A stretch of 61,206 nt of DNA. Source: Erysipelothrix rhusiopathiae (lineage in GTDB: Bacteria > Bacillota_I > Bacilli_A > Erysipelotrichales > Erysipelotrichaceae). Made by a program: the position numbers and the translations under genes. Each line of letters opens with the position of its first letter. Position 1 is the stretch's first letter. Shown here piece by piece: positions 28,826 to 33,548 of this stretch. The notes beneath the pieces were generated by a model. That model was given only the letters and a program-made list of their open reading frames with translations. It was not told the origin of the DNA and did no database searches. The stretch spans positions 1-61,206 of the forward strand of contig CACYBS010000014.1 in assembly GCA_902772725.1 (NCBI GenBank), given 5' to 3'.

Positions 28826-28838
28826 ACTTCCTTTTTTT
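28797..28838. terminator. Bidirectional terminator, nrdG / lipoprotein gene
   Basis: AAGGAAGTT (28799-28807) / AACTTCCTT (28825-28833) with an inner CTCTATATAGAG palindrome. T-tract on the plus side; on the minus side TTTTCTTTT. Confidence 0.85.
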
Positions 28839-29475
28839 AAGATTCATCTTCTTCGATGCTGATAATCTTCCACTGTTCTTCGTCTTTAACCAAAGATATC
28901 ACATAAGTTTTGGTTTCACTGACAGCCCCATCTATAATGCGGTCTAAATCTTTAAAGTAGATCTGCGCTGCTTCTTCCAGCACTTTCTGCAAAGCCGCAT
29001 CCTGCCCTTTCTGGTTACGTATCTCAGCCAATTCGTCGCTATGCTCATTCATGTAATTTGTCGCATTGGCGGTTATATCGGAAGATGCCACCGATATAGG
29101 GCCGGCAACAGATGCAGGAGAAATTCCGTTAATTTCAACAGTTGCCGCAGCTGAATTTCCGTTGATATTTACTGCTTTAATCTCATACGATTGAACTGTT
29201 TTGGAAAAGAGCTTGGTAATGAACGCATCTGCCCGACCCTCAAAATCATCGGATAAATTTGCGTTTTTTAATGCGTTCTTTATATTGTCCTCTAAATGTA
29301 AGATTTGAAAATCATCCGAAACATCCAGATATTTAATAGACTCGGATACATCTCCTTTTCGCATCGCATCTAAATATGCTGCGACAGTACTTTCAACTTC
29401 TTTTCTTTCACCGGAACATCCTACCGTACAAAACAATAGAATAACCGCAATAAATGCGGTTATCTTTTTTCTCAT
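28837..29475 (-). CDS. Lipoprotein, DUF5105/DUF4878-like, distal paralogue
   Basis: A 212-residue predicted lipoprotein: basic N-terminus MRKK, hydrophobic core and lipobox TVGCS (Cys20). The mature part, KEVESTVAAYLDAMRKGDVSESIKYL, then a closing EEQWKIISIEED strand, looks like an NTF2-like/cystatin-like fold as in DUF4878/DUF5105 proteins. It overlaps the end of the upstream paralogue by 4 bases. The two share the amphipathic start and the QWKI.SI ending, so they are probably a tandem duplication. The function is unknown. Confidence 0.7.
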   Translation of the reverse strand: MRKKITAFIAVILLFCTVGCSGERKEVESTVAAYLDAMRKGDVSESIKYLDVSDDFQILHLEDNIKNALKNANLSDDFEGRADAFITKLFSKTVQSYEIKAVNINGNSAAATVEINGISPASVAGPISVASSDITANATNYMNEHSDELAEIRNQKGQDAALQKVLEEAAQIYFKDLDRIIDGAVSETKTYVISLVKDEEQWKIISIEEDES

Positions 29476-30116
29476 TCTTCTGCAACCTTCTTAATTGAAA
29501 CGATCTTCCACTGGTCGCCTTCCAGTTTCAATTCTACTTTCAGCTTATATGTTTTGCGGGTAGTTTCCTGGAAAGTTGTCTGCAATTCGCTGTTAAAATC
29601 ATTGACCATATCTTCCATAGTCTTATCGCCTTTGCCTGTCAGGGCACCGAACAGCTGCTCATAATTACTTGTCAGATATTCGCCAATTGTACTCATATAG
29701 TTTTTCACCAGTTTTGATACCAATTCATCCAAATTATCCGGATCAACACCGGTTACTGTCAAATCTACAACGGCTGTATCGCCTTCGATTGTTACATTAT
29801 CAATTTTGTAGTTATCAATCGCTTTTCCGATTGTAGAATGAACAGATTCAGTTAATTGTGTTTCTGTCTCTGCATCAAGACCCAGAGCATGAATGGATTG
29901 GTCAATTGTTTCTGTCATCTTTCCATAGTTAAGCTCATCTACAATATCAACATCAGTAAATTGGGCTGCATCTGAGTAGGCTCCTTCCTGGATATCATTG
30001 AAATAACTTGTTACAGTTTGTTCAATCTGCTCAGTCTGCTCTTCAATGCTGGCACCGCAGCCGGCCATTGTTAAAACCAAGGCTGCACTTAAAATAGAAT
30101 AAAATAATTTACGCAT
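29472..30116 (-). CDS. Lipoprotein, DUF5105/DUF4878-like, proximal paralogue
   Basis: A 214-residue predicted lipoprotein with lipobox TMAGC (Cys20) after a short hydrophobic signal. The mature region begins SIEEQTEQIEQTVTSYFNDIQEG and ends LEGDQWKIVSIKKV, the same layout as its downstream neighbour but clearly diverged. AAAAGGAG lies before the ATG. The pair forms a two-gene unit that ends at the bidirectional terminator shared with nrdG. Role unknown; surface-anchored. Confidence 0.7.
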   Translation of the reverse strand: MRKLFYSILSAALVLTMAGCGASIEEQTEQIEQTVTSYFNDIQEGAYSDAAQFTDVDIVDELNYGKMTETIDQSIHALGLDAETETQLTESVHSTIGKAIDNYKIDNVTIEGDTAVVDLTVTGVDPDNLDELVSKLVKNYMSTIGEYLTSNYEQLFGALTGKGDKTMEDMVNDFNSELQTTFQETTRKTYKLKVELKLEGDQWKIVSIKKVAEE

Positions 30117-30195: not shown

Positions 30196-30221
30196 AAAAG
30201 AAAAAGCGGTAAAATCACCGC
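30196..30221 (-). terminator. copA terminator
   Basis: GCGGT / ACCGC with a 6-base loop directly after the stop; on the minus strand followed by TTTTTC and further Ts. Confidence 0.8.
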
Positions 30222-30434
30222 CTATTCAATCGATACAGGTTTATATCCGGCTTCTTCTACTGCCTTAAATAAATCTGCTTCCGCAACATCTTTTGAAAGC
30301 TTAATCTGTGCTTTTTTGGCATCTAGATCAATCGTTGCTTCATTTACACCATCCACACCTTCTAAAGCTTTCTTTACATGAGCAGCGCAATTTTTGCACA
30401 TCATCCCTTCAACAACCATTACTTTTTCTGACAT
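30222..30434 (-). CDS. Possible free CopZ-like chaperone from an internal copA start
   Basis: In-frame ATG at residue 924 of CopA, preceded by a perfect AGGAGG (30448-30443) with 8-base spacing. The product would be 70 residues, MSEKVMVVEGMMCKNC to the shared stop, which is the size and layout of CopZ copper chaperones (one GMxCxxC site and the beta-alpha-beta-beta-alpha-beta fold). E. coli makes a chaperone from its copA gene by frameshifting; internal initiation here is an inference from sequence. Confidence 0.45.
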   Translation of the reverse strand: MSEKVMVVEGMMCKNCAAHVKKALEGVDGVNEATIDLDAKKAQIKLSKDVAEADLFKAVEEAGYKPVSIE

Positions 30435-33203
30435 TTTTTCTTCCTCCTTTTCTGTCATTGTATATCCGGCATCTTCTATTGCCTGTTTCAACACCAAATC
30501 TTCGATTGGCTTTGTAAGAAGAAGGTTCACAATTCCACCTTCCAGTTGAACATCTGCTTCTTTTACACCTTCTACTTTTTCCAGTGCCGTTTTTACTCTA
30601 TTTACACAATGTTCACACATCATGCCCTCTACCACAATCGTCTTTTGAACAGGAGTGTCATCTACCAAAACATATCCGGCATTTTCAACAGCTTTCTGTA
30701 CAGTAGATTTATCAATCTCACAGGTAGAATGAACGATGGCTTCGTTCTTATCCAAAGATACATCTGCCATTATAACTCCGTCAATGGATTCCAATGCCTT
30801 TTTTACCCGTGCAACGCAATGTTCACACATCATTCCTTCGATTTGGTATTCGGAAATAATCTCAGGAGCACTTTTTTCTTCGATAATTGGGTCTTCTTCT
30901 ACTTCCTCATTTACTTCAACTTCCGGCTTAAACCAGCGTAAGCGCAGCGCATTTGTGCAGACACATACGGAACTTAAAGACATAGCTGCTGCTCCAAACA
31001 TCGGAGACATCTGCCATCCAAATACCGGATAAAATAATCCGGCTGCGATAGGAATACCAATCACATTATAGAAGAAAGCCCAGAATAAATTCATATGAAT
31101 ATTTGAGATGACCTTACGGCTAAGATCAATCGCCGTATTTACATCCATCAATGAATCCTTTACAAGGATAATATCCGCAGAATCCATGGCGATATCCGTT
31201 CCTGCGCCAATGGCTGCACCGATATCGGCACGCATCAATGCCGGGGCATCGTTAATGCCATCGCCAACCATCATTACCTTACGGCCTGCTTCCTGCAGCG
31301 AACGTACTTTTGATTCCTTATCGGCAGGAAGTACTTCACTGATTACTTCATCTATTCCTACGGATTGGGCAATGGCTTTGGCAGTGAGTGCATTATCCCC
31401 TGTCAACATGACTGTATGAATGCCTTTTTTCTTAAATTCCCGGATTGCCCTGGCAGAAGCGGCACGAACAGTATCGGATACCGTCATCATTCCAATGACC
31501 TTTGATTCATCGGCAAATAATATCGGTGTTTTTCCTTGAGAGGCAAATTGCTCCATATCTTTTTTTACAGATTCTGTTACCTCAACACCCAGCTCACTCA
31601 TAAAAGAAAGATTACCGGTATAAGCCATTCGGCCATCGACCAGAGCCTTCACTCCTTTTCCGGATACCTCTTCAAATTGCTCTGTATGTAAGCGGATATT
31701 TGATTTTTTCCTGGCGTACTCAGATATTGCCTGTGCCAACGGATGGGCAGAACCTTCTTCCAGTGCTCCGGCAATTTGAATCAGCTTATTTTGATCGGTA
31801 CCGTATGCAAGTACATCCTGTACCGACATCTTACCTTTTGTGATCGTTCCGGTTTTATCTAATACAATGGTATCGATATTCTGTAAATTCTCTAAACTCT
31901 CTGCATTTTTCACTAAAATCCCATATTGGGCAGCTTTACCGGTTCCTACCATAATCGCAACCGGTGTTGCCAAACCTAAAGCACATGGACAGGAAACCAC
32001 CAGCACACTGATCGCGCAGGTTAAGGCAAAGGTAAAATCAGCCCCTATCAACATCCATATAATCAATGTTGCAACAGAAATTCCGATCACAATTGGAACA
32101 AACACGCCGGCAACCTTGTCCGCAACTCTGGCAATCGGAGCTTTGGAGTTACCTGCATCATCGACAAGACGAATAATCTTTGCCAGCGTTGTATCATCGC
32201 CAACCTTGGTCGCTTCAAAACGGAAGGTACCGTTGGTATTGATCGTGGCAGAAATCACTTCATCCCCAGCCCGCTTGGTAACAGGCAGGCTCTCACCGGT
32301 AATGGCAGATTGGTCGAGATACCCTACGCCTTCAATCACTTTACCGTCAACGGGAATGCTCTCACCGGGACGAATCACAACAACATCGCCTTTCGTTACA
32401 TCTTCGCTGTTGATCATAATTTCATTGCCGTTACGTATAACATGCGCCTGTTTAGGGGCTAAGTCGACTAACTTGCTTAACGCATCTCCGGTCTTTGCCT
32501 TCGATAAGGACTCCAAATATTTACCTACACTGACTAAAGCTACAATCATCGCAGCCGAGTCAAAATACATGCCCCGCATCATAGCTGAGTGCGCCATCTC
32601 CATATTCATTCTTCCAAGCGCATATGCCATGACTAACGTATTTGCCCATGCGAATACATACGAAGCCGATGATCCTACCGCAACTAAAGAATCCATATTC
32701 GGAGCTCTTTTGATTAATGCCTTGAATCCGTGGATGTAGAAATTACGCTGAATAATCATAATGATTGTGGATAAAATAATCTGAACCAATACATTGATCA
32801 TCATGTTTTCCATACCCGCAAGAATAGGAATCATAGGTAATCCCATCATTTCTCCCATTGCGATATACATCAACGGAATCATCAAAACAACAGACCAGAT
32901 CAAACGCTTTTTGGCAGCCTTCTGCTGGAGCTCCGCTTCCTTTTGACGGCTCTCCCATTCACTTCGCAAGCTGTTTTTCTCCGTTTTATTGGCCCCTTTT
33001 AAGGAAGCCCCATATCCAATATTAGATACTGCCTGACAGATTGTATCAGGGTCTACCGTATCCGGGTCATAATCCACCTTCATAGAATTTCCCAGTAATG
33101 ATACATCGACGGCACTTACACCGTTTACCCCGGATACTGCTTTGGTGACATTGGCCTGGCAGGCTGCACAGGTCATCCCTGTCACATTAAATGTTTCCTG
33201 CAT
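30222..33203 (-). CDS. copA: Copper-exporting P-type ATPase with one N-terminal and three C-terminal HMA domains
   Basis: A 993-residue Cu(I) P1B-ATPase. HMA1 is at the N-terminus (GMTCAAC, Cys12/Cys15). The pump core has the transport motif CPC at 405-407, phosphorylation motif DKTGT with Asp449, GDGINDAPAL, and the Cu(I) signatures YN and MSLSS in the last helices. After the final helix three more HMA domains follow: GMMCEHC (Cys793/796), GMMCEHC (863/866) and GMMCKNC (936/939). Typical CopA proteins carry one or two HMA domains, at the N-terminus only, and end soon after the last helix. An in-frame internal start precedes the last HMA. It begins 8 bases after csoR in one operon. Confidence 0.95.
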   Translation of the reverse strand: MQETFNVTGMTCAACQANVTKAVSGVNGVSAVDVSLLGNSMKVDYDPDTVDPDTICQAVSNIGYGASLKGANKTEKNSLRSEWESRQKEAELQQKAAKKRLIWSVVLMIPLMYIAMGEMMGLPMIPILAGMENMMINVLVQIILSTIIMIIQRNFYIHGFKALIKRAPNMDSLVAVGSSASYVFAWANTLVMAYALGRMNMEMAHSAMMRGMYFDSAAMIVALVSVGKYLESLSKAKTGDALSKLVDLAPKQAHVIRNGNEIMINSEDVTKGDVVVIRPGESIPVDGKVIEGVGYLDQSAITGESLPVTKRAGDEVISATINTNGTFRFEATKVGDDTTLAKIIRLVDDAGNSKAPIARVADKVAGVFVPIVIGISVATLIIWMLIGADFTFALTCAISVLVVSCPCALGLATPVAIMVGTGKAAQYGILVKNAESLENLQNIDTIVLDKTGTITKGKMSVQDVLAYGTDQNKLIQIAGALEEGSAHPLAQAISEYARKKSNIRLHTEQFEEVSGKGVKALVDGRMAYTGNLSFMSELGVEVTESVKKDMEQFASQGKTPILFADESKVIGMMTVSDTVRAASARAIREFKKKGIHTVMLTGDNALTAKAIAQSVGIDEVISEVLPADKESKVRSLQEAGRKVMMVGDGINDAPALMRADIGAAIGAGTDIAMDSADIILVKDSLMDVNTAIDLSRKVISNIHMNLFWAFFYNVIGIPIAAGLFYPVFGWQMSPMFGAAAMSLSSVCVCTNALRLRWFKPEVEVNEEVEEDPIIEEKSAPEIISEYQIEGMMCEHCVARVKKALESIDGVIMADVSLDKNEAIVHSTCEIDKSTVQKAVENAGYVLVDDTPVQKTIVVEGMMCEHCVNRVKTALEKVEGVKEADVQLEGGIVNLLLTKPIEDLVLKQAIEDAGYTMTEKEEEKMSEKVMVVEGMMCKNCAAHVKKALEGVDGVNEATIDLDAKKAQIKLSKDVAEADLFKAVEEAGYKPVSIE
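30435..30448 (-). promoter_or_regulatory. Internal Shine-Dalgarno inside copA
   Basis: AGGAGG (30448-30443) followed by AAGAAAAA and ATG. In the copA frame these bases encode the linker KEEEK between HMA3 and HMA4, where codon choice is free to create the site. Confidence 0.55.
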
Positions 33204-33211
33204 TTTATCAC

Positions 33212-33502
33212 CTACTTTAACTTCTTTATCATATCCATGACTTCATCCATGGTCTCATTCTTTCCATCCAGAACATCCTGTGTTACACAGGTTTTCAGAT
33301 GATTAGACAAGACAATATATCCAAATGACTCCAAGGCTTTTTCTACAGCTGCGATCTGAATCAAAATATCCCCGCAATAGCGGTTTTCGTCCAACATCTT
33401 TTCAATACCGTTTAACTGTCCGGTAATTCGATGAATTCGATTCTTAAGCTGTTTCACTTCTTCATCGCTTCTTGGTTTATGTTTATAATGAACGTCTGTC
33501 AT
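33212..33502 (-). CDS. csoR: CsoR-family copper-sensing repressor
   Basis: A 96-residue all-helical repressor that releases DNA on binding Cu(I). The C-H-C ligand set is present: Cys43 in RYCGDIL, His68 and Cys72 in NHLKTC. The N-terminal helix holds the family pattern KQLKNRIHRITGQLNGIEKML. ATG 33502 has GAGGTGAG upstream; the longer frame from 33520 starts inside the -10 box and is not used. It is first gene of csoR-copA and has an operator inside its own promoter. Confidence 0.93.
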   Translation of the reverse strand: MTDVHYKHKPRSDEEVKQLKNRIHRITGQLNGIEKMLDENRYCGDILIQIAAVEKALESFGYIVLSNHLKTCVTQDVLDGKNETMDEVMDMIKKLK

Positions 33503-33519
33503 GTTCTCACCTCGCAACA

Positions 33520-33548
33520 AATATATACCCTCGGGGGGTATATGTCAA
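33520..33548 (-). promoter_or_regulatory. csoR-copA promoter with CsoR operator in the spacer
   Basis: On the minus strand TTGACA (33548-33543), 17 bases, TATATT (33525-33520). Centred in it is the inverted repeat ATATACCC (33523-33530), 5 bases, GGGTATAT (33536-33543), the C-tract/G-tract pattern of CsoR operators. Repressor bound here would block polymerase directly. Confidence 0.88.

Follow-up and report, generated by a model that had tools for sequence, protein, structure and literature searches.

The window, that is, the whole 61,206-nt stretch of Erysipelothrix rhusiopathiae DNA that was analysed, carries a copA operon on its minus strand. The operon's first gene (33212–33505) encodes a csoR-family copper-sensing repressor, which matches the Pfam family Trns_repr_metal with an E value of 6.6e-28 and scores 67.7 bits against the NCBIfam RicR model, under the cut-off of 175. 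A sigma-70-like promoter, TTGACA-17-TATATT, lies upstream of csoR (33520–33548, minus strand) and matches the consensus at 11 of 12 positions. It is overlapped by the palindrome ATATACCCCCCGAGGGTATAT (stem-loop 33543–33523), which, by resemblance, we take to be a putative CsoR-type operator. copA itself spans 30222–33203; the coordinates given in the preliminary description were right, and the gene is on the minus strand, the plus strand containing no open frame across this interval. Directly 3′ of the copA stop, a hairpin with a T tail (30204–30223, minus strand) resembles an intrinsic terminator. Two adjacent lipoprotein-like ORFs of 212 and 214 residues, with no Pfam match, are found beyond it (28837–30116, minus strand).

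The copA product has 993 residues and, by Pfam and NCBIfam profiles, the order HMA, P-type ATPase core, HMA, HMA, HMA, with Pfam matches to E1-E2 ATPase, HAD hydrolase and four HMA stretches. It scores 594.8 bits against TIGR01511 (Cu-translocating ATPase), above the cut-off of 397. The translation contains SCPCALGLATP, DKTGTITKG, GSAHPLA and TGES, corresponding to the membrane CPC, DKTGT, HP and TGE motifs that characterize the P1B-1 CopA group. By profile and motifs, the gene product is a P1B-1 copper-exporting ATPase, its transport activity being predicted. The HMA cores lie at residues 9, 790, 860 and 933. The N-terminal HMA (GMTCAAC; 33012–33194, minus strand) scores 60.4 bits against the HMA profile. 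C-terminal HMAs 1 (30672–30848) and 2 (30459–30638), both on the minus strand, recognized by the HMA profile and carrying GMMCEHC, have no Shine–Dalgarno (SD) sequence plus start codon in front of them. The last, C-terminal HMA 3 (30240–30413, minus strand), carries its CxxC as GMMCKNC and scores 57.4 bits against PF00403, for which the cut-off is 24.8. The preliminary description had read one N-terminal and three C-terminal HMAs and regarded the C-terminal ones as a departure from the normal plan of copper ATPases. The domain count stands for this gene; the peculiarity does not, as the layout is usual in this branch of CopA proteins. Nearly all of the nearest relatives have one, two or three C-terminal HMAs, and 107 of 109 loci (L008–L116, copies included and picked by similarity to this CopA) show C-terminal HMAs.

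Ahead of the last HMA, the sequence reads AAGGAGG-AAGAAAAA-ATG. The internal SD (AAGGAGG, 30443–30449, minus strand) precedes by 8 nt an in-frame ATG at 30434–30432, codon 924 of copA, which opens a 70-codon frame (30222–30434, minus strand) for a CopZ-like HMA protein that includes HMA 3. This combination of SD, 8-nt spacing and in-frame ATG before the last HMA, with a CopZ-sized product of 70 residues, had been pointed out earlier and is read directly in the sequence. The predicted pairing with the anti-SD is stronger for the internal SD (−11.8 kcal/mol) than for csoR (−10.2 kcal/mol) or for copA's own start (−9.1 kcal/mol). Residues 1–70 of the internal product align with residues 1–71 of the CopZ chain 1k0v_A, and residues 1–65 with residues 1–66 of 6ff2_A and 2qif_A; both its length and its N-terminal register are those of a free CopZ. 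Its scores against the NCBIfam CopZ models fall under the cut-offs (NF047957, 63.4 against 85 bits; NF033795, 49.8 against 91; NF033794, 47.9 against 95). The start region can form a weak hairpin (−6.3 kcal/mol for a 56-nt stretch, z −2.35). A UGACA/UGUCA stem (30429–30457, minus strand) encloses the internal SD in its 19-nt loop and ties up part of the internal start codon by pairing; this stem might tune initiation there. A separate copZ had been reported missing from the operon, and this extends to the draft assembly (85% complete, 5.5% contaminated), where the only other HMA matches are two single-HMA ORFs adjoining feoB-like frames.

We gathered relatives from near and far genomes as the best matches to the window CopA. 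Among the search patterns was an HMA peptide, EGMMCEHC, which selects for HMA type and not for an SD. Rows identical over the last 300 residues, or identical after residue 100 (five of them), were dropped. Frames were taken from stop to stop, so that the survey of relatives covers internal sites and not copA's own start; contig ends truncate some of the loci (L141, L147). The resulting 157 distinct fused genes, meaning copA genes with a C-terminal HMA, are a similarity-picked sample that gives no estimate of prevalence. They comprise a discovery set of 103 genes, 91 of which have an ATG near the expected place, and a held-out set of 54 genes fetched after the hypothesis had been formed, 47 of which have such an ATG. 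The ATG tested was the one nearest to position −11 from the first Cys, before the last HMA, and it was chosen blind to any SD. As a synonymous null, upstream codons were resampled with each gene's own codon usage. Because the genes share descent, z-scores exaggerate how independent the observations are, but the size of the effect does not depend on these scores.

A start codon with an SD match of at least 5 nt precedes a C-terminal HMA in 139 of the 157 fused genes, and many gut bacteria are among the carriers. Among the 103 genes of the discovery set, an ATG in this place has an SD of at least 5 nt in 93 and of at least 6 nt in 69; the corresponding figures for the other internal ATGs of the same genes are 84 of 2837 (3%) and 13 of 2837. 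At SD lengths of at least 5, 6 and 7 nt, the 91 blind-chosen discovery ATGs gave 88, 65 and 35 observed sites against 36.7, 15.6 and 8.9 expected from synonymous resampling, and the 47 held-out ATGs gave 43, 31 and 22 against 16.2, 5.7 and 3.1. Codon composition as a full explanation is rejected by these counts. The conservation of SD and ATG beyond amino-acid constraint, which the preliminary description had named as a check, thus holds in both sets, and the site has the sequence features of a gene within a gene: an in-frame internal start with an SD, conserved beyond the demands of the protein sequence. The spacing between SD and ATG in the relatives peaks at 8 nt (49 of 93 sites), followed by 7 nt (18 of 93), and in 57 of 93 the Met occupies position −11 relative to the first Cys, which is also the register of free CopZ. 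The 88 SD-bearing discovery sites occur in 80 different seven-residue contexts, with the SD in all three codon phases. In two genes (L132 and L178) Val replaces Met at the start; both valines are encoded by GTG behind an intact SD, and the sisters of these genes have ATG (L125 and L128 beside L132; L177 beside L178). In a position profile, SD and ATG stand far above the A-rich background of the linker, and the start windows are less folded than the rest of the gene, 94% of control windows from the same gene being more stable on average; both profiles took the start with the best SD and are therefore not free of selection. Since the weak hairpin in the window gene pairs part of the start codon, this average is not cleanly transferable to it.

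The signal marks the last HMA in particular. By the a priori choice of ATG, SD and ATG precede 131 of 157 last HMAs, as opposed to 1 of 41 non-last C-terminal HMAs. The non-last domains are 48% identical to the last HMA and 31% to the N-terminal one, and are closer to the last in 38 of 41 cases. Since they resemble the last HMA but almost always lack the signal, copies in other than the last place appear to lose it. In a few genes (L019, L036, L047) the signal precedes the first of two C-terminal HMAs and would give a two-domain product. The net charge is −3.6 for last and −5.1 for other C-terminal HMAs, a difference that is not interpretable.

A start with an SD of at least 5 nt is missing from 18 of the 157 fused genes. 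Six of these have a weaker, 4-nt SD match (L027, L087, L110, L115, L145, L163), four have a separate HMA ORF next door (L038, L044, L106, L159) and for one (L077) the genome encodes a free CopZ-like protein at another locus. The other seven (L063, L064, L149, L179, L191, L194, L198) have neither an SD-bearing start nor a separate HMA ORF in the stretches examined, and a genome search for L063 and L064 returned no free CopZ, only longer HMA ORFs of membrane type. A neighbouring separate HMA ORF accompanies 4 of the 18 signal-less genes as against 4 of the 139 signal-bearing ones (Fisher p 0.006); the latter four are L066, L079, L099 and L133.

Altogether, 27 separate HMA ORFs adjoin copA, 19 behind an unfused copA and 8 behind a fused one. 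They are in another frame than copA in 16 cases, and the majority have an SD-preceded start in the register of CopZ. In the unfused relatives, copZ lies directly downstream of copA with a similar SD and Met register. Fused and unfused forms interleave on a tree of 164 ATPase cores, on which at least ten changes are needed; this is a quick tree with several weak forks and no known root, and 15 of its rows have neither a fusion nor a copZ in the stretch examined. One large clade holds most of the fused genes, and the signal is present in 112 of its 133 rows. Nested among the fused genes of this clade is an Atopobiaceae copA (L109) with a stop codon early in the linker, its ribosome-binding site and start being unchanged relative to a fused neighbour (L065). 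With that stop, a chaperone in L109 would have to come from the internal start; both genomes are metagenome drafts, and the stop could be a sequencing error. In five other loci (L018, L019, L020, L036, L047) a csoR-like frame, recognized by eye, opens at the copA stop or immediately after it, as in TAATG, and csoR there seems to lie downstream rather than upstream of copA.

We scanned 39 genomes with a fused copA using the HMA model, a 40th (G128) serving as unfused control. The 39 genomes contain 19 HMA ORFs of less than 100 residues, of which 13 adjoin a second P-type ATPase as judged by coordinates. Six of the 19 were read: four are beside an ATPase-like ORF, the one in G028 has the same VDCANCA-type sequence with no ATPase-like ORF in view, and the one in G018, of GMMCGMC type, could be a chaperone. 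In G030 an additional HMA ORF overlaps copA. For these 39 fused genomes we rejected the idea that a free copZ simply resides elsewhere. A second small HMA type with the motif GMMCGMCE was seen at L066 and L079, directly behind copA, and at L221 (G018) and L231 (G337); these proteins follow copA or stand alone, and three of the four have a KKGLF tail. Also common are single-HMA proteins of about 120–150 residues (L005, L006, L214–L217, L223–L226, L230, L234) that have a hydrophobic stretch near the N terminus as well as a CC-rich segment. Those that were read look membrane-anchored, and several are beside feoB, which possibly links iron and copper handling; among the neighbours of HMA ORFs, Pfam confirmed FeoB for L215 only and an ATPase for L219 only.

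Several explanations of the conserved signal that involve no free chaperone can be weighed against these counts. The SD and ATG could be the relic of a fusion, an old copZ start that has simply not eroded although the free product is no longer needed. The interleaving of fused and unfused genes, which implies recurring fusion and fission, leaves room for this, because some fusions may be young. We nevertheless consider a relic quite unlikely: the signal persists throughout most of a deeply diverged, mostly fused clade with widely differing linkers, 88 of 91 sites are seen where synonymous choice would leave 37, and its presence before only 1 of 41 similar non-last domains suggests that it decays when not needed. 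An SD-like stretch might also arise as a by-product of a flexible linker rich in Lys and Glu, given that K-E-E can be written AAGGAGGAA. Indeed, 60 of the 88 SDs are in phase 0, often over K-E-E, and the synonymous null alone gives about 40%. The observed counts are far above that null, however; the remaining 28 SDs are in other phases and use other residues, reordering the linker codons gives only about 10 of 91, and the linkers of non-last C-terminal domains bear SD and ATG in a single case among 41. A by-product of linker composition is therefore very improbable. Least credible of all is a pause signal, in which the SD would delay translation of the last domain until the pump has folded, with no initiation taking place. 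SD-like stretches have been proposed to pause ribosomes, but a pause needs neither an ATG at 7–8 nt, nor the N-terminal register of CopZ, nor GTG at the two Val sites.

A different possibility concerns the message rather than the start: free CopZ could be translated from a separate short transcript, made from an internal promoter or by processing, using the same internal ribosome-binding site. Such a route is compatible with initiation at codon 924, and the title of Drees et al. (2017) names differential transcript formation in E. coli besides frameshifting. The scanned region inside copA holds 10 promoter-like sites against 10.0 expected by chance, and the nearest upstream one on the minus strand matches at 9 of 12 positions about 320 nt away, so that we regard a dedicated transcript as unlikely.

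We therefore favour, with a probability of about 85%, the reading that a single copA mRNA would yield both the pump and a free CopZ-type chaperone by internal initiation. The earlier proposal to this effect gains support from the SD and start conserved in relatives, the short protein being predicted from them. Ribosomes entering at the copA start would make the Cu(I) pump with its one N-terminal and three C-terminal HMAs, while others, recruited by the internal SD, would begin at codon 924 and release a 70-residue chaperone identical to the pump's last domain. Judging from CopZ biology, the free product would deliver Cu(I) to the pump and perhaps also to CsoR, and the fused copy may serve as a chaperone domain on a tether. 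The arrangement looks like an old copA–copZ fusion that kept copZ's ribosome-binding site, and not like a one-off. A copZ downstream of copA would have been joined in frame in an ancestor, most simply by loss of the stop or a change of frame between the two neighbours; the extra C-terminal HMAs were presumably added later in some lineages. The copZ start signal would have been kept after fusion because the free chaperone is still needed.

In E. coli, the chaperone CopA(Z) is the first of two N-terminal HMAs of CopA and is set free by frameshifting close to the 5′ end of the mRNA. The mechanism is reported to be programmed ribosomal frameshifting (Meydan et al. 2017; Drees et al. 2017). To our knowledge, a pump and a chaperone from one copA gene were previously known only from this frameshift. 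The likeness is that one copA gene gives a pump and a free HMA copper chaperone; the E. coli frameshift is mentioned in PMC10187127, and the work on it is cited there and in PMC7558416. The window CopA has a single N-terminal HMA and thus lacks the E. coli layout; in its case the 3′ end would supply the chaperone, with the last C-terminal HMA translated in frame behind an SD of its own. On sequence grounds, the system would work like E. coli CopA/CopA(Z) without being a member of it. With the separate copZ of unfused relatives it shares gene order, a similar SD and start register and the HMA domain. It differs from them in having no stop between copA and the copZ part, so that every full-length pump carries a CopZ domain. 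Internal in-frame initiation is described for the bacterial genes-within-genes rpn (RpnL/RpnS) and Cas10d/Cas11d in PMC10327210, and in these pairs, too, an internal start that keeps the frame yields the C-terminal domain on its own. They concern, respectively, a toxin plus antitoxin and a subunit of Cascade, whereas the window gene would pair a membrane pump with a soluble metal chaperone. For copA, our search of the open literature found no report of internal initiation; subscription literature was mostly outside that search, and the absence is not proof.

We consider it likely that across Bacillota and Coriobacteriia copZ has been incorporated into copA at its 3′ end and is still read from its own conserved start, which would supply a tethered and a free domain in a ratio set by the internal ribosome-binding site. 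This would be an old and widely distributed counterpart of the E. coli frameshift that keeps the reading frame. If a second solution by a different mechanism is maintained in these groups, the coupling of the two products recurs. Because fused, unfused and stop-split forms exist side by side, the need for a tethered and a free chaperone is directly testable. Few bacterial in-frame gene-within-gene pairs are well supported, and this gene would add a broadly conserved one. Genomes with a fused copA look copZ-less but may not be, and annotation would be missing a small protein in each of them.
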